NCBI RefSeq assembly: GCF_040054535.1
Contig: NC_090785.1
Coordinates: forward strand, 8,560,501-8,624,500
DNA: 64,000 nt
From: Antennarius striatus
Taxonomy: Eukaryota; Chordata; Actinopteri; Lophiiformes; Antennariidae
Reading direction: 5' to 3'
The notes under the pieces are model-generated. The model saw only the letters and a list, made by a program, of their open reading frames with translations. It did no database searches and had not been told where the DNA came from. Positions 16,347 to 27,372 of this stretch are shown in pieces. Position 1 is the first letter of the stretch; every line of letters begins with the position of its first letter. Position numbers and translations under genes: made by a program.

Positions 16347-19300
16347 TCACTTTATGAACGCAACATCTGGGATCTTGCCATCCGTCTGAAAATAGAGAAG
16401 ACATTTTATGACTTTGTTATTAAAGCATTATACATTTATAGTAAAACAATAAAAAATTTAGCTTCCTAAGTTACCTTCAACTGAGTGAAAATATCAGCTG
16501 CACGATTGAACACCCATTCATTGTCTTGCAGACACCTGAAGCAGAGAACAATTATTCCGATGTTTTAAATCAGTGACAAATAAGTCTTTCTTTACTACAG
16601 ACAACATGTACAAAAGCAAGTCTTACTTTTGGGACCATTCCAAGTTCATGCCAGACATTTGTGAAAAAGCTGCAAGCATCTCTTGCTGTGGTGCAGTGAG
16701 GGTGGGGACGGGGCTTGAAGATGGCGTCGGGGCAGGAGCGACGAAAGCTCGCCGGATCTCCTCCGTTGTAGCCATCCGAATGAAAAGCTGGTCGTTAACG
16801 ATGCCCAGACTGTGGACCAGAAGACAGAGAGTTCACATACAATTAAAGAAACCAAGGTACACTGTGAATAAAAGCCATTAAAAGGCAAATGAAAAAAGCT
16901 AACATAATCATAAAATGTTATGAATGACAGGGGTTCTGGAGCACAGAGCTTTAAATTCAAGTTATTTTAAAGTATTTAAGTCAGCAACAAAATGGATGTT
17001 TGTCATGACAAGGTTATTTTCTTGAACATTCACTCACATGCTAGACTAATCACTCGTCTTATTGACTATCTGGAAAGCTGGAGTCAAAAGTTTTTTTCTG
17101 ACAATAGTTCTTAAAATTACACGGAGATTGAGCTTGAGTGTTTTTACAGCGCACTAAAATGCACTTTCTGCGGGCAACAGTGCACAAATTACATCCACCA
17201 GAAGTGGCTCTTTTTTTACAACAGACAAGCCAAGATTGTCAACATAAGGGAGGTGACAGAAATAAAACTGGTTTTGTCTTTTTTAAAATTGCTGTATAAA
17301 CAAGTCTTTCTCAAGGAGAGCTTCATTTCAGGGGTAAACCAGATGACCTTGGGGAAATACAGTATTTTGAGTAGCACAATGTAGTAACTGCTGTGCTGAG
17401 TCAACATTGCTTTTGCACCACCTTTAATAAATATAAATTGCTAAGAAAGAAAACAATACATAGTTTTGCTAAAACTGATTAAATTTGACAGACATTTTGG
17501 AAGAGACAGCAGTTTGTTCTGAAACTTGAGTTTAGCCTTCTCTGGGCTAATTTTTCTAACACGACCATAAAAAACTCTCTTCTGTATCATAATATAGAGT
17601 GAAAATTAAACAATTTACCATTATTTTCAAAGCAACATACAAAGGACAAGAAGAAGATGTAAAGAAACAATTAGAACAACCTACCCATTATTTCCTACTG
17701 GGACTGTAATGAACACTCGAGAGAAGGCCATGGTGGACTCTCGAGATTTACCGTCTACAACAACTGAAAAACAGGCATGACACAAATCAATAACACAATC
17801 ATCACCAGTCATTTGCTGGGCTTGCAACAGTTCAAGCTTAACTATCTTTATTTCTATCCTACTTTATGCAGGTATAAATGTGAGATTCAACAATTGAAAA
17901 CTAGTTGACAAACTACAAATATCAAGCTGCTAGCTGTACCGGGTCACTTCGGCTAAATTCTGTTGGCATGCAGAAATAGTGCTCCGGCGGAAATACTGCC
18001 ACTCGCTAGCGAGCAGCACTATTTCCGCTAGCGAGCGGTGCTAGCGGAAATAGCGGCGCTAGCGAGCAGCACTAGCGAACGAAAAAGTATTAAGTTTTAG
18101 CCTTTTTTCTGTAAAAATAAGAACGCCACTGTGGCTACACAGTCTAAAAACCTTGTAGCCAATCTGGAATTTACTTCGCCTATGGCGAAGTGGCGAATGG
18201 CTAGCGCAAGCCCAGATTCACAACAAAATTTTAATTGGGATCACCCAAAAAAAATACTCACCTTCTTTAAAGATTCCACTGATGGTGAATGACAGCAGTG
18301 TGTTCTGTAAATTAACACAGTTAATCAAAATTAAACAGAATGAGTCTAAATAAGAGAAACACTGATTGAAAGGTGTGGACAGATCAAATTAACTCACTGT
18401 GCAAGTGTTTACATCAACGGTGAACGATGCAATGTCATGCTGAGTCTTGGGTAATTCATTGAGAAATGCCACCACATTCAGTCGTGTGTGTTTCAGAAGT
18501 CGGTATCGTATAGCTAAAGAAGGAAACATTTAAAGAGTGACATGAAATAAAATCCCAAATCAAATAAATAATACCATCGTCATAATTCAGATATAATCAT
18601 GAGCCAACAGCTCGATGATAAACTCACTGGAGTCTTTGATCCTTTTCAGGTTTCTGCTGTCTTTATGATACTCTCCCAGACTGCTCCTAAAACCAACAGG
18701 GGTACATGAGATCAGTGTGAACAGATGAATGAACGGGTGGGATGAATGGAGCAGCTGGTAATCTTAAATTAAGTATGAGTCTACCAGTGGAAACATTTAA
18801 TGACACATTCCAAAGCTTAATGTGTTGATCAGTGAGGTTACATTATTATTATTGGTTTACCTGATATTGATAGACACATTATAAATAAAACTATCCCATG
18901 TGAGCATTGTGGCGCTTTACTAGTTTCAATACTTCTAGACAAGTGTGCTAACATACCGTGATGGGTTCTGGGTAGAGTAAGGTGTTGTGAGGGATAACGA
19001 TGCTCCATCGTGGTAAGCATCCAGGAGTGGCTGTCTGTTCCCTGAGTCATATATGCTGTAATACCTGCAACACAACAGCTGAACTATTAGAGTTTGACAC
19101 ATGAAACTAAAGTTGATAAAAATCAAAGCAATGAAGTAAGAAGATTCTTCCTATTTAAAGCAAGAAAACTCACTGTTGCAAGAACCGAAGGATGAGAGCC
19201 TTGATTTCATCTGAGCCAAAACAGCTGCCCTGCATGGTTCATTGACAGAAACACTTGTAAGGGACGTAAAGGAGACAGTAGATGTCGAGACTTTCAAAAG

Positions 19301-22300
19301 GGAAAACAATGCAGCTTGAACCATATGCTTCTGACATGGACAACATCCTGCAGAGCCTGTATACAGGTGTCACATAAACCAGATGACAAAGATATACAAA
19401 AAACCCAGAAGTCTAGACCACAAACCTTGCAAGGTGGGATGGTAGTGGGTGTTTCAACATCAAATCCAATGGGTGGGGGCAGGTCATTGCCATCCTAAAC
19501 AGAGATCATAACGCTCATGTAACTGCATGCCGATACCAAAACATGAATGTAAATGTTTTTAAAGAACATGCTAGACGTAAATGACTTCATTTAAATACAG
19601 AGACATACTGATTAGATGTATTGACAATTGTGAAATTCCAGCCATATAGTTTGAAAAGGTTCCAAAAGTCATCATATTTTAACTTTCTCAATTTTGAGAC
19701 TTACGAGTTTCAGCAGCCGCGGGAACCTCTGGCGTACAGCACTGGTACAGAAACAAACAACTGTTACGGTCATAAACCACCACAACACAAGTCACACCCA
19801 TGACTGTATTGTGCCAGTCAAAACTGCTGACTCAGTTAATGCCACTTTCTGCCTGTCATGTGATGTAATCTCATAATGCTATACTGCCAGTATCACTGGG
19901 AAGGACACAATAAAGTACAGATACACAGACGCAAAGAATGTAAATTTAGTACAACCAGTGCCAATGTGTGTATGCGTGTGTGTCTGTGTTCTGGGGGGAG
20001 GGTCCCCTTTGCATACAATTATATCAACAAACTGACAAAGATACAGGTTTTTCAGTCTTGATAAGATAATAATCCTTTATTGTCCCACAGTGGGGACATT
20101 TGTGGATATACATACTCATATTGAGTTGTGCCTGTTGACAGTCCTCCCTCCCCATATTGTACTTACCAGCAGACATACTCACCCTCTCCCTCAAGACGCA
20201 GATACAGATTGATCTGACATGGAGAAGCAACCTAACTTGGAAACCAGTAAACACTTATCTACATACCCACCAATCCCTCTTCACTTTTTCCACTATCGAT
20301 GCCGCAAACATTCAGCAAAGAAAGACTGAGACCAGAGCAAAAGAAAAAGAAAAAAAGACAGGTGGCCTCAAAGTAAGCTGCACCCAGCAGTTCCCCCACT
20401 CATCTTACATCCTTCCCTTGCTGCACAACAAAGCAATCATTAAGTTTTGGGATTATTGATACTCAAAGGGTCTTCAGGACTGTGCAACATATGGACTTCT
20501 TGTAGACGTGATTTAATTTGGACCAAACCCTCAAGTTACAGAGAGAATGGAAAATCATTAAGTGTTCAACTTAAGCAACATTTCTCTGCTCTATATTTAA
20601 TGGTCAAGTTTAATCAAGTAATCACAGCCATCAGAAACTGGACGATGAAGTGTTTTGTTTTTTATTCCTCAACTCATGTGTCTCAGTTAAAACTGACGTT
20701 ACTTTTCCAGTTCCATAACCTTCCGTTAGAAGTTAGTTAAAGGGTTTTGGCCAAACTCTCCACATCTTTCACTGAATGGCAGAGGCCTGTTTTAGGCCAA
20801 AGAGTACCAACTTAGTGGGAGAGAAAGAACAATTTTCTCTTTGGCTCATCATAAAGAGTCCTTGAAAAATGCTCTTATGCCCCTCTGCCTCAGCCCAATG
20901 GCATTTCCTGAGAAGTCCCATCACAAGTTCTTGTCATATTCCCAGCAATTCAGCGTTCTCAGGGACTGAGGTCGAGTAATCGTGACTGTGCCTGCCTTAG
21001 GTTGTCCCGGGGTTTTGAGGTGGGATCTTACCCGTCATGGGCTATCCAGCCTTCCATACCCGCCTGATACAGGAGGCCTTGTGGGCAATGGTGCTACGAG
21101 GGGAAAGGAAATCCGTCTTTGACTTTTTCTTCCAGACATTTGTAATGCCAACTTGCAGTGTGTTCACATTCCATCTCCAATATATTGCTTTATAGTATTG
21201 CTCAAGAAATTATTAGATCTTTTTTTTTCTTCTCAAGTAGTTACGTTTGTTAAGCTATATTTCATCACCAGTGTGATAATATTTGACAGCAGCTTATGGG
21301 ACAAGCAATCAAGATATCAGTGGTGAAGTGCTGGGTACAGCGTCAATGATAACCACAAAAGAGAATTAAGCTTAAAAGGATGTCCTGAGGAGAAGCTGAA
21401 TAGCAGGAAGTAAGCAGGGAGAAAGGCCTCTTCAAAGTGTGGAGCATTAAAAACAAGTTGGTAGAAAGCAGCAGGAAACTCCATCAAAGGGTGGACGTCC
21501 TCGCAGAAATGTTCGGAGGCAAAAAATGTTTAGTTTCCAGTGTGCAAAGGAAAGTTACTCAAGTGAGAAAAATGTCTGCAACAAAACCCAACAAAAATTT
21601 TAAACAGGTGCAAATTAATCTGCACAATTTTCTCTCCTTCGCTCTTACACTCAAATGCACACACATATACACAAATACAGGACCTCAATGGTGAACGGAA
21701 GTCCCCCTGCGTAGCGATTATGTTTGTCAACGAACGCTGGAAAGTGGTTTTAGCTTTCATAACAGCATCATGCACACTTCTAGCACACTGCAGACAACTC
21801 CTAAACACCCCTACTTGCTCATAGCAAAGTCAGTGTGCATTGTTGGGTCATCTTGAATTTATCATAAACTTTGATCCCTCGTCCCCCCCAAAACACAGAC
21901 CAACCTGATGTATGAGGCCTGATCCTTGAACAGGTCACACAGAGGGTTCCTATTAAGCCACAGTTCCACCAGCTTTAAGCCTTTCAACTTGTCCAGCTCC
22001 CGGTCTGATTTCAGCTACACAACCACAAAACAAGACAAGTGGGTGTGAAATAGGATCTGAAAACAAATCAGGCTGATTAAATGATGGCTATTCCACAAAT
22101 GGAGTCAGTTTTACCTCATTGTGGGACAGATTGAGGGTATTCAGATGAGGAACCTTGGAAACTAAATCAGTCAGTTCATCCAGTTTGTGAATACGGTTGT
22201 TACTCAAGTTCAAGCAAGTCAGCTGACAGAAGAAAAAAAGACTGTAAGGACTTTTGGTTTGACCCGTACATATATAGAAAAAAGCAACACTTCAACAGAA

Positions 22301-25300
22301 AAACAAGTACCATATTTATTTTCCAAATCTACGCCATTTTAAATATTACCTCTGGAATGTTTTCTTCAATGACCTTGATGACGGCTTCCATGTTGGTTTT
22401 CCTGTTCAAGATGACTTCAATGTTCTGGGACACCAGGTCTGTAATATTAGTAATAATAATTACAAACTATTCAAGAAAAATTAAACCATTTTCAAGGATA
22501 TTATAAAATTAAGTTCTAATTGCCAAATTATCTCCATCATCCACCGAGTCATCATTGTAGAACAACATTGTCGTGAGTGTTGGTGTCAATTCTCAGTCAT
22601 CAGAAGTTCAGCTGCTTTGTGGTAACCGTTACCTTAGAGCTGAGACTGCATACTTATTTAGTACAAATAATTATAAAGCATCTTTCATAATTTAATATTT
22701 AAAGTAATGTATAAACAACCAGTTAACTGTATTCCTATGTGTACTGTGATAAACTCGATAAATCACTACAGTATGGAATAAAAAATGTTTTTTACCTGGG
22801 TCTGTTCGGATGTTGTTTAAATCCAATGCTTGCTGGGAGCCATCAAAACGCTTTGCCATACATTGCTGAAAATGGATGACATAATGATGAAAACTGATGA
22901 AAATGATCAGCACAGTTCTGTCTTTACAAAACGCTGGAAAATCTCCCAGGCCCACGTAAATACATAGGTGGACCAATTCTAGTAGGCAATGGTTTCCCCA
23001 CAAGCTTGATTTTCAAGGTTTGAAGTCGATTTATCACCTACAGTCATGCATGTACACATTACATCAATCCTGTCTATCCTATTAAGTCATTGGAACAATA
23101 AAAAAATAGGTCCCAAAACATTCCCAACATTTTTCTTGAGACTATTGTACCAAATGGAATTTCCAAAGTTATTTTCTGGTTCTGTTGTATTTAGTGCCGA
23201 GTTGAGGGCACACAAGTTCCTTGCATGTGCAGATATTTACCGATAGTCTGCATGGCAAAATTCCCTCCTCAAAAATTTTAAATATTAAAACGTATTTTTT
23301 TTAAATCAAGGTGTTTTCTACGAGAGTACTTCATGTTAAACCCCTGGTGCGAGCAATGCTGCAGACCTGAGCATAGATTACTATGATCAGTTCAAGAGGA
23401 AACTCTCAAAAGCGGCACAATCTGGATTATGGAATAATCACAGGCTGCACAATGTCTGTGATTGCTCTGGCAATTAAGGTGATCATTAAATCAGATAAGC
23501 CAGTCACCATCGACCAAATGCCAGGTTGCAGGTGGCTGGAAAGAGTTATCCAGTGGTCAAAGATAGGCATAAAGTCAGAAAAATCGAAGTCATTCAATCT
23601 GTAGAAAAATAACCTGCCAGGGACCGGACCACTGGAGGCCTGACTGGACCAGAGGACCAGTCAGGCCTCCCACGCTACTTCAAGGCACGGCATTTCCAGC
23701 ATGGGATATTGCCATGGCTACCCTGGCCACTGCTTGTTTTTAAAGTCCCCATCTCCACCATACAGATCCTGGAGAGGAAGGTCAGAGGCTTCTCAGGAGA
23801 CAGCTGAGGTTGCCCAGAAACCTCAGCAGCAGCCAGTTGTATGCAGAGCTGGACAGCTACAGTACAAGCATGCCCACAGAGATAGGCTGCAGAGTATTTG
23901 TGGTGTTGCTCACTTCACAAAACTTTGTATCATAAGAGCTGCATATAGCGGAGACAAAAAACAAGCTTTGGATCTGGAGTGGAGAACCATATGAACAAGC
24001 GAGTGCTGTCCGAACATGTCGTGGCCTGATCAAGTATGGCTGGGTCACATGATCAAAGTGGTGTGAGGCTGAAAGACTCGATCACCCAGTGACCCCAGGT
24101 TAACTCACTGATGAAGTGTTCAGAAGATGCATCTAAGAAGTTCAGCTGTACTTTTTCCTAATTAAATTTTAACCACAGTTTCAGCAATTCCACTAGTCTC
24201 AAAATGCCACTGTTTTCAGATTTTTATTTCTACATTAATCTCACCTTCAGATGCTCCAAATGTTCAGGCTTTAAGTCGGCGAGTAGGAAGGATGGTAGGC
24301 CGCTTGGGTTGACATGCACTTCCACCTTGAAGATACAACAAGTGCAGTGAAAGAGCTTAGTCTGACTTTTGGTTATTCATCACATGAAGTTTAGAGATAT
24401 CAAGGGGATCAATAAGAACAACAGTGTACTCTTTATCTGCAAGTCACAGGTAAATATGAAGAACAGTAAGATGATGAGTTTTTTATGTTACTGGGTAACT
24501 TCAAGCTAGCGACACTAAGTAGCGACACTAAATCAGTTTATAAGCAACTTGTAAAAAGTGAGGTTCTTCAAATTCAGAGGGCAAAATACTAGCTTGAAAA
24601 TCATATACTACACAGACCAAACAAAAAAATATACAACTCAAACAAATACAATTCTCAGACAATGTAGGCTTTTGTTAAGAGATGTTTAACTAAATTACCT
24701 TCTGGTGCATGGGGGTTATTTGATAAAATCAGAAAAACAGTGGTAAATGCATTTAAATTGCATTTTTCATTCTGCTACAATCAATTTTGGGTGCTGTAAA
24801 TGTCACATTTTACCATCTGTGACACACAGACAACTTAACTTAGTGCTATTTTGTCAGTGTAAATGCAGGGTGATCAAGCCAGTCAACTCAAAAATTACAT
24901 AACATTAAGCTTAAGACTGTTCAATTTTGCTCCTCCAGCCCATCCTGTTAGCCTTCGTATTGGAGTTAAAACTGCCCAATTCTTTATGTGAAATTGTCCA
25001 AACTTAGTGATGAGGAATGATATGATAAAACTCGCTTCATGTTGCCCTTGTTGTGTATAAAATGATCAACATGAATTATTTGACAGATTTGAAGATCCCC
25101 AGAAAGGTTACTGGTTGCACACTTACTTTTTGAAAGTTAAATAATGTTGTCTCTTGCATTTGGACTTCAGCACTACATGTGCTTAACTAAAGTCACATGA
25201 GGGTTCAGTAAATCAAATAATCAGGCTTTTGACGTCAAAACATGTAGCTGTAGTGCAAAATGTCCAGGAGGACACTTTCTGCAGGAAAAATAAGAACTGC

Positions 25301-27372
25301 ATGATTAGCCCAATGTACCTTATAACCATCAGTGTCTGTGATCTTGTGGGAACATTTGTGCAAGGCAGTTGAAGCAGAGGAATCATCCACATAGAAATGG
25401 ACCCTGTTATGGTCAACATGGTACTGGACAGATTTGAAGAAAGAATTAGTAAACAAGGACAAAAAAATTAACAATCAACCTCTTCAATCTAATGCCATAA
25501 GTACTTTTCTTCATTTTAGAAATTTACAATAAACAATCCTAAAAGCAGCTCAGAACCTAACCTGCACAGGTGTGAAGGGAATTGGGCAGATATTCTGAAG
25601 AGCCGTCAATAACCATTTCTTGTCGTATTTTCTTCCATGAGGTATCTTGCATACAAAAAAAGAATATGATCACTTAACAAGCTATGAGATGCAAGTAGAG
25701 ATGTAATACACAACAAATATAATACGCACCGTTACTTTGTACCAGCCAGACCGATTTCTCCCTCCTCCATTGCTGCCTCCACTTCTGTCTCCTCTAAAGT
25801 TTCCACCTCCTCCTCTACCACCTTTGCCTTGTCGTCTGTCTTTGTCAAACCGTCCATCTCCTCCTTTTCGAAAAGGTCTACCATATGGTTTGCTGATTAA
25901 AGATAAAATATATATACATTTCAGAGATGCACTTTAATCCATAGCTCTGTGAATTTATGAGCCTGAATTGTAGCCTTTTCAAGGCAGGAGCAGTAAACCT
26001 TTATTCCATCCCAACAATTGGTATAAATGCAATGAAGATGGAATGAGAATCACTTTTGTTCCACTTCTGTGATAGCCGAAGGGAGGTAATAGCACTCAAT
26101 TCCCTGTCCGTGTAAACAGAGGGTGGAAGTCTAGATAGGATTGATATTTTGATACCGTACTTGTCATGCGGTTCAAACCACCTAGAAAAGGCAACTCAAA
26201 AAGGAAAATAATCAACTATAATAATCTTCAAGCAGCGAGACAGCGCAAGGTTTTTACCTAATGACATAATGGATTCAACAGCCATGTAACAGGCAAGGTA
26301 AATCTTTTTTGGCATATGCATCTATTCCATACATTGCACTACTAATTGCATAATGCCAAATGCTACCCTCAACTTAAACACAGCTATTTTATGCATTGTG
26401 CCTCTTTTCCTCACTGACACACAGCATTTACAGTCATAGAACAGTTTTGCAGGATTCCAGCTAACGAGGGTCTCATAGTGGTGTCCAATAGTCCTAATTA
26501 GAGAAAGGAGGATGGTGGAACACAAAGATTACATTGCTACAAACTGCAATAGGTGGCATTACCCAAACTTACAATCTGTGCTGGGAGGTGTTGTCTTGAG
26601 AGTTGTCACTCATAGTTACATCTCCATCAGTATCCTCAAGCCGAGACCGTGGCCCAGGGCCTCCAAAGCCTCCAGACTGGTTGCCTCGTTGGCGGTCTCG
26701 ACGAGATCGGTCATATGCCCGGCCCTTGTAGAAGCCTCTGGTTTTACGGCCGCGAAATTGTGGTGCAGTTCTATCATCATGCTCTGAATGGAGGAAGATT
26801 ATTAAAAAATTATCCAGTTTAAATCAATACACTGATCACAGTTATACAAATAATATTTCTGTTCAAACTTGTGTAATACATTTCAACACCTAAAAAATTA
26901 CCAAAAAAAAAAAAGTACAGTGAACAATTGTCACAGCTCGGATGGATTACTAGGTGTCTGATATAGCATCTGGTGGTTTATTTTATGCTACTGCCTAAAG
27001 TTACAAAAATACAGCAGGAATGCTCTTGACTTAGCAGGTCTGTCTTTTACAACACATAAGTACTGAAACAAGGGAAGACAAAAAAACTTTGCCTCCTGCT
27101 ATCTTGAAACGACCTCAATATACATCCAATTTTCTGGCATTGTGATCACATACGATACATTACCATATCCTAATACTTTAATGCCCGCACCCACGTGAAC
27201 CTCCGGGGTGTATGAGACATAATTTACCTCCTTGGATCATGTAATCAGAGCTTCTGACCTCTCTTCTCACCATTAAGTCTCCGTGGTCTGAAGAAAAATG
27301 GTATATTTCATGAGGCGTTAATGCCAGGGAGAACATTTACTCACCGTTGTAGTAATGTCCGCCATCCGCCAT
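16347..27372 (-). CDS. nxf1: NXF1/TAP nuclear mRNA export receptor (22 coding exons)
   Basis: With NXT1, NXF1 carries mRNPs through nuclear pores. Exons: 27345-27372, 27228-27287, 26573-26783, 25730-25892, 25562-25645, 25319-25423, 24245-24325, 22796-22865, 22350-22438, 22115-22222, 21905-22014, 19705-19741, 19426-19494, 19174-19229, 18957-19064, 18628-18686, 18398-18513, 18262-18304, 17685-17754, 16627-16809, 16475-16535, 16347-16385. They sum to 1950 nt, 649 residues (human 619). In order: an Arg/Gly-rich RNA-binding N-terminus ([14 protein letters not shown]), a pseudo-RRM from about 147 ([16 protein letters not shown]), leucine-rich repeats (about 235-370), an NTF2-like domain ([20 protein letters not shown]) and a C-terminal UBA-like domain ending IPDVAFIK. 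Start at 27372 is in good context with a CpG-rich promoter upstream. Exon 2 is absent from human, and intron 11 holds a CTE. Confidence 0.97.
17940..18210. repeat. Palindromic GCTAGCG cluster
   Basis: The motif gctagcg and variants occur about five times between 18004 and 18075 in both orientations, interleaved with gaaatag/ctatttc inverted pairs. A separate perfect hairpin arm, cttcgcctatggcgaag, lies near 18175-18192. It sits in nxf1 intron 18. It could be a decayed MITE or a hairpin-prone tandem array; no known family recognised. Confidence 0.6.
19742..21904 (-). other. nxf1 intron 11 (retained-intron candidate)
   Basis: A 2.16-kb intron, one of the longest in nxf1. It holds the CTE and, near 20054-20110, an inverted LINE/SINE tail (tttattgtcccacagtgggg). 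Read through from exon 11, the frame adds 13 codons and stops at TGA 21862-21864. Nothing else recognised. Confidence 0.7.
20985..21055 (-). promoter_or_regulatory. Constitutive transport element (CTE) in nxf1 intron 11
   Basis: On the transcript strand ATGACGGGTAAGA (21026-21038) and AACCTAAGGCAGG (20991-21003) are the two halves of the NXF1-binding internal loop known from the type D retroviral CTE and from intron 10 of mammalian NXF1. The stem pairs just inside them (TCCC with GGGA) and just outside (GCC with GGC) are present. GGCTGGATAGCCC (21039-21051) also matches the CTE flank. The intron is the positional equivalent of mammalian intron 10. It lets intron-retaining nxf1 mRNA reach the cytoplasm. 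A second, weaker loop-like pair may exist (GGCGGGTATGG near 21050-21062; GGCCTAAAACAGGCC near 20785), but that is uncertain. Confidence 0.85.
23370..24060 (+). mobile_element. Decayed R2/Dong-like LINE fragment
   Basis: Frames with stops and at least one frameshift read [19 protein letters not shown] (near 23540-23600), then [18 protein letters not shown] and [17 protein letters not shown] (23695-23850). These resemble the end of the reverse transcriptase and the thumb region in R2/NeSL/Dong-group LINEs of fish. Located in nxf1 intron 7, antisense to the gene. Confidence 0.6.
24400..25250. other. nxf1 intron 6, no recognisable content
   Basis: AT-rich intronic sequence. I see no exon, RNA gene or named repeat in it. 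Confidence 0.5.

Follow-up and report, generated by a model that had tools for sequence, protein, structure and literature searches.

Does the gene for the mRNA export receptor Nxf1 in the frogfish Antennarius striatus carry, inside one of its own introns, a copy of the RNA element by which that receptor recognises intron-containing messages? In the constitutive transport element (CTE), as described in excerpts of PMC4330393, each symmetrical unit takes one Tap-p15, with contacts made through the RRM and the LRR. Excerpts of other studies give the human NXF1 CTE as 96 nt with one loop and the MPMV CTE as having two loops (PMC6478720), record massive binding of NXF1 within its own intron 10 in the cell line studied (PMC4782049), and state that retention of Nxf1 intron 10 is regulated and yields a short isoform (PMC5963917), a short NXF1 product of intron-10 retention also being described in PMC5095910. 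A fish counterpart of this arrangement would be expected to show itself in three places, namely in the position of the element within nxf1, in its loop, and in the short proteins that the gene gives rise to, and we take these up in turn.

The nxf1 gene and the putative hairpin of intron 11

The window, by which we mean the whole stretch of 64,000 nucleotides that was analysed, contains a complete nxf1 gene on its minus strand. In a PDB search the C-terminal part of the predicted product matches human NXF1 (6e5u) with an E value of 4.2e-150, a protein search with the product predicted for intron retention (see below) places Antennarius striatus NXF1 at the top of the ranking, and the RRM-LRR module is identical to that of human NXF1 in 3RW6 at 137 of 241 residues. 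A protein search of the frogfish's own genome for a second nxf1 gene found none, all 15 matches lying within the single C10 locus. The exons flanking intron 11, which the sequence-only reading had put at 85-90% identity with human, agree at 50 of 68 residues (74%) when compared at the protein level. The features needed for the argument are the following:

16347..27372, minus strand: nxf1 gene, 22 coding exons, GT..AG introns, 652 aa, complete (gene model)
21905..22014, minus strand: exon 11, end of the LRR domain, ...DQASYI (gene model and alignment with the human protein)
19742..21904, minus strand: intron 11, 2163 nt, the longest of 21 introns
20984..21051, minus strand: putative CTE core, 68 nt, starting 853 nt into intron 11
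21051-21047 / 20988-20984, minus strand: further possible outer helix GGCUG/CAGUC, closing the core across a 4-nt/1-nt loop
21042-21040 / 20992-20990, minus strand: GCC/GGC stem
21026..21038, minus strand: Y block ATGACGGGTAAGA, exact, 5' strand of the NXF1-type internal loop
20991..21003, minus strand: X block AACCTAAGGCAGG, exact, 3' strand of the NXF1-type internal loop
21025-21022 / 21008-21005, minus strand: TCCC/GGGA stem

The element thus lies just where an orthologue of the mammalian element is looked for, in the nxf1 intron next after the exons that encode the LRR domain. Provided that residue 619 is the last of chain 6e5u, the end of exon 11 presumably corresponds to about residue 339 of the human protein. 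Intron 11 begins with the 5' splice site CAG/GTTGGT (the slash marking the exon end), which ranks as the third weakest of 21 under a generic position matrix, not a fitted one, and such a weak site might give a slight hint of a tendency towards retention.

Read 5' to 3', the core runs GGCUG-GAUA-GCC-CAUGAC-GGGU-AAGA-UCCC-(13-nt apical loop)-GGGA-CA-ACCU-AAGGCA-GGC-A-CAGUC. The observation from which this work started, that two blocks on the nxf1 strand face each other across TCCC/GGGA and are closed by GCC/GGC, is exact, and its parts could all be located at the coordinates above. Frogfish intron 11 holds both strands of an NXF1-type loop in an arrangement that would let them oppose one another within a hairpin. 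The GCC of the closing stem could alternatively pair with the other GGC in AAGGCAGGC. The loop hexamer reads AAGGCA; the described AAGACA is absent, one transition away, and it is by position and loop, not by hexamer, that we class the element as a candidate orthologue of the cellular CTE.

A weaker second loop pair about 200 nt apart had also been suggested. The best such pair in intron 11 lies near 21120 and 20798 with a combined 7 mismatches, and it does not survive comparison with shuffled introns, of which 49 in 100 hold an equally good one, as expected by chance. Two loops in 2-fold symmetry, the mark of the whole type D element, are accordingly not found in intron 11, which has one loop.

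The sequence-only reading had proposed the folding of minus-strand 20780-21070 as a check. Unguided folding of this 291-nt stretch around the element did not pick the CTE structure (z -0.76), nor did unguided folding of 81 nt around it (z +0.50). For the 68-nt core, the CTE-like fold at -14.4 kcal/mol comes within 0.3 kcal/mol of the minimum free energy (MFE) structure at -14.7. The mean pair probabilities of the CTE-like helices are 0.21-0.85 with 0, 2, 14 or 20 nt of flank per side, 0.08-0.28 with 5 nt, and below 0.04 with 10, 40, 100 or 200 nt. Because the outcome depends in this way on the flank chosen, thermodynamics alone neither proves nor excludes a CTE fold.

Comparison with the SRV-1 loop strands and rarity of the block pair

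Our viral reference is the pair of primers for the SRV-1 half-CTE probe printed in an excerpt of PMC4330393, which give both strands of the NXF1-binding loop; it is a single reference, of viral origin, and the pairing of the two strands is our own reading, not one taken from that paper. Compared with these strands, the frogfish Y and X blocks keep 12 of 13 letters in one case and 11 of 14 in the second. Under our pairing the loop sizes of the two elements agree as well (4/1, 6/6 and 3/1, counting A.C as a stem mismatch), the ACCU/GGGU stem is identical in both, and the frogfish GCC/GGC stands where SRV-1 has CC/GG. The stem on the apical side, by comparison, has been rewritten, reading AGUGA/UCACU in SRV-1 and A-UCCC/GGGA-C in the frogfish, with all four standard pairs changed on both sides and the fifth an A.C mismatch, as judged against one viral sequence. 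With the two strands of the 6/6 loop taken in register, the A to G change in the hexamer comes to lie opposite base 3 of the facing strand, where A has changed to U, and an A.A opposition would have become U.G, which is a reading of two sequences and not a measured covariation. The order of the strands in the frogfish is the reverse of that in the SRV-1 half-CTE probe, as would be expected of the other half of an element with 2-fold symmetry.

How often such a pair might arise by chance was estimated from 300 dinucleotide shuffles of the window, read on both strands. When each block may differ from its SRV-1 strand by no more than one letter and the two may lie no more than 100 nt apart, the window yields a single pair, whereas shuffled windows average 0.0033. 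Relaxing the limit to three mismatches gives 7 pairs (6 on the minus strand and 1 on the plus strand) against a shuffled mean of 4.7, a count so near the background that only the close match stands out. A search of the frogfish's own genome (548 Mb) found 36 sites with the X core, and just one of them, the nxf1 site, is accompanied by an exact Y core no more than 120 nt away. The exact Y..X pattern gave 0 matches in the genome contig collection and 0 in the viral contig collection, figures that serve as a control for rarity only, neither collection having supplied retroviral or vertebrate DNA to compare. Helices with the geometry of the CTE core were found at 0.14% of 200,000 random positions in the window, under thresholds set after the element had been seen. 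An Rfam scan of the window gave 0 matches at the gathering threshold, and a scan of 501 bases around the element at E values up to 5 gave only one weak unrelated match.

Only one other X-core site of the 36 has a Y-like core at one mismatch, GAGGGGTAA, at G000:C19:3588680-3588991 (L045). There the Y-like core abuts the X core directly, and the site is probably not a CTE.

Short Nxf1 proteins that read into the intron

If intron 11 is retained and exon 2 is included, the predicted short Nxf1 of the frogfish has 383 aa, the last of them coded by the intron:

21862..21904, minus strand: intron-coded tail of the predicted short Nxf1, which completes R and adds 13 residues before TGA

A search with this 383-residue product matched 653 proteins, and the best 120 of the 653 were inspected. 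At least four near-complete fish short Nxf1 proteins, 355-359 aa in length, are among the matches listed (P0023, P0024, P0055 and P0068), each with the whole RNA-binding half followed by the ending DQA(S/A)YI-RSV plus 5 residues; that is, all four read into the intron equivalent to intron 11 and then stop. Among the longer NXF1 proteins fetched, the closest to P0023 is that of Nile tilapia, to P0024 those of snailfish and lumpfish, to P0055 those of gobies, and to P0068 those of Poecilia species. The four sit on contigs of 1.8-4.6 kb in a collection, 'lgn', that we take to consist of assembled public reads. In the gene model of the frogfish, exons 1-11 cover 5.5 kb of genomic DNA, so a contig of 1.8 kb that carries them unbroken should be a spliced transcript, and from their unbroken reading frames we infer that the other three contigs are likewise spliced transcripts. 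None of the four proteins is from the frogfish, and they could also reflect intronic polyadenylation instead of full retention.

A second search, restricted to short proteins, gave 47 matches. Four of these, P0126-P0129 (P0128 being from Saguinus oedipus), leave the frame at the same residue as the fish short forms and have in common the mammalian-type tail RSVV(A/D)S(V/I)SPPGD(L/I)(H/C)PLGG. From this common point of departure we judge frogfish intron 11 to be the same intron as mammalian intron 10. The junction is not universal, since the R is the last residue of P0125 and P0131, SAVSW stands there in P0130, and several entries have longer tails. In several annotated fish isoforms (P0014 and P0017, for example) the reading continues for some codons of the intron before returning to exons further on, a pattern that could stem from genuine alternative splicing or from an artefact of the gene models.

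A longer intron-coded tail is common to P0141, P0143, P0145 and P0147, reading RSV(K/M)DSEGWEEEVLRA(H/Q)N.. on to FEDF, perhaps an alternative ending that a single group of fish has conserved.

Probable orthology with the vertebrate CTE and its alternatives

Taken with its position, the matching of both SRV-1 loop strands, the uniqueness of the block pair across the genome and the protein junction shared by fish and mammals lead us to read the element as a CTE. The sequence-only reading had proposed that fish nxf1 has a CTE in the intron that corresponds to intron 10 of mammals, and the loop strands, the uniqueness and the common frame-exit residue all speak in favour of that proposal. We consider it highly probable that the element of frogfish intron 11 is an orthologue of the vertebrate NXF1 CTE, a hairpin with one loop that would let Nxf1 export its own intron-retaining mRNA for a short Nxf1. 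When intron 11 is kept in the mRNA, the hairpin would present its asymmetric internal loop, the RRM and LRR domains of Nxf1 would grip that loop directly, and Nxf1-Nxt would export the unspliced nxf1 message; translation in the cytoplasm would then yield a short Nxf1 made of the RNA-binding half and a short intron-coded tail, without the NTF2-like and UBA domains. The export receptor would in this manner license an alternative mRNA of its own gene. For the frogfish, we infer the folding in the cell, the binding by Nxf1, the export and the retention of intron 11 by analogy with the known systems.

Could two CTE-like words have met by chance in an ordinary intron? The unremarkable MFE folding, a loop hexamer one base off and an X core that is not rare in itself, with its 36 genomic sites, would all suit such a coincidence, but both blocks lie close together and on the right strand in the one gene and the one intron where they are expected, and the shuffled expectation of 0.0033 pairs per window, like the single partnered site among the 36, makes mere resemblance very unlikely. 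Insertion into intron 11 of an endogenous retrovirus bearing a type D CTE has in its favour that the only sequence compared is viral and matches closely. Against it, the 121-nt element and the surrounding 901 nt each match their own place only in the 548 Mb, in a copy search that skips very common words, and the finding of no other copy argues that this is not a dispersed retroelement; the position, moreover, fits the cellular CTE of mammals, and excerpts of PMC4829213 take the opposite direction, regarding the M-PMV CTE as co-opted from cellular regulation. We therefore hold a retroviral source to be very unlikely.

A decayed ancestral CTE, bound poorly by Nxf1 and leaving short transcripts that are by-products cleared by nonsense-mediated decay, would account for the change to AAGGCA and for the poor unguided folding with its competing folds. 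It sits badly with loop strands that are nearly unchanged beside a stem that differs with its pairing intact, with the hexamer change being met, if the loop is in register, by a change on the facing strand, and with the recurrence of short Nxf1 entries in four fish lineages; we regard such decay as unlikely.

The intron-10 CTE of mammalian NXF1/TAP is said to have been described by Li et al. 2006, and Wang, Rekosh and Hammarskjold 2015 (RNA 21:426) reportedly found CTEs in zebrafish and coelacanth nxf1, that of zebrafish reportedly being functional with zebrafish Nxf1 and Nxt. With the mammalian NXF1 CTE well known and fish NXF1 CTEs reportedly in print, the frogfish element is probably a further example, and less new than the sequence-only reading had supposed; our search of the open-access literature found no paper on fish NXF1 CTEs among the matches listed. 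The frogfish element resembles the mammalian one, which is known here by description, in lying in the same gene, in having one loop and in going with a short protein, here a predicted one, that has an intron-coded tail, and differs in that the intron is numbered 11, perhaps through an extra 5' exon, in that the tail diverges after its first residues, and in its hexamer, AAGGCA in place of AAGACA. Like the elements reported from zebrafish and coelacanth, it would be a CTE of fish nxf1, but from another lineage (Lophiiformes, Percomorphaceae). With the SRV-1/MPMV CTE it has in common both NXF1-binding loop strands and, by our own pairing, equal loop sizes, whereas the virus has two loops in 2-fold symmetry against one here, CC/GG for GCC/GGC, a different apical-side stem and the reverse strand order. 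The gamma-CTE of gammaretroviruses, according to excerpts of PMC4174252, resembles the putative frogfish hairpin in being a stem-loop; its loop carries AAGACA and gives a response to NXF1, and a multi-base replacement of AAGACA weakened the NXF1-linked function; unlike the frogfish element it is located in viral pol, and its effect was obvious only with four tandem copies.

What is new here is a percomorph element with a variant hexamer, its uniqueness in a whole fish genome, and the short Nxf1 proteins of four further fish lineages. With the frogfish, spiny-rayed fishes gain a representative among the vertebrates that seem to have a CTE in an nxf1 intron, alongside the signs of a short Nxf1 in four more lineages of fish. 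Since the two strands of its loop have been preserved while the stem next to them has changed, the element lends itself well to testing how RNA is recognised by Nxf1, and also whether feedback on the export receptor through intron retention is ancient and widespread.

Other parts of the gene also vary. Exon 2 (27287-27228, minus strand) encodes 20 residues in 60 nt, keeps the frame and has the look of a cassette exon; tilapia P0002 has its counterpart, whereas P0001, the annotated isoform of Antennarius, lacks it, as do the four short Nxf1 proteins P0023, P0024, P0055 and P0068. At 17770-17750 (minus strand) two possible acceptors stand 9 bases apart ahead of exon 19, CAG/TTGTTGTAG/ACGG, of which the first is used in fish P0001 and P0002 (KEVVVDGK), human having a single V. 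In intron 18 (18090-17960, minus strand) short repeats resembling GCTAGCG follow one another and may mark the end of a transposon.
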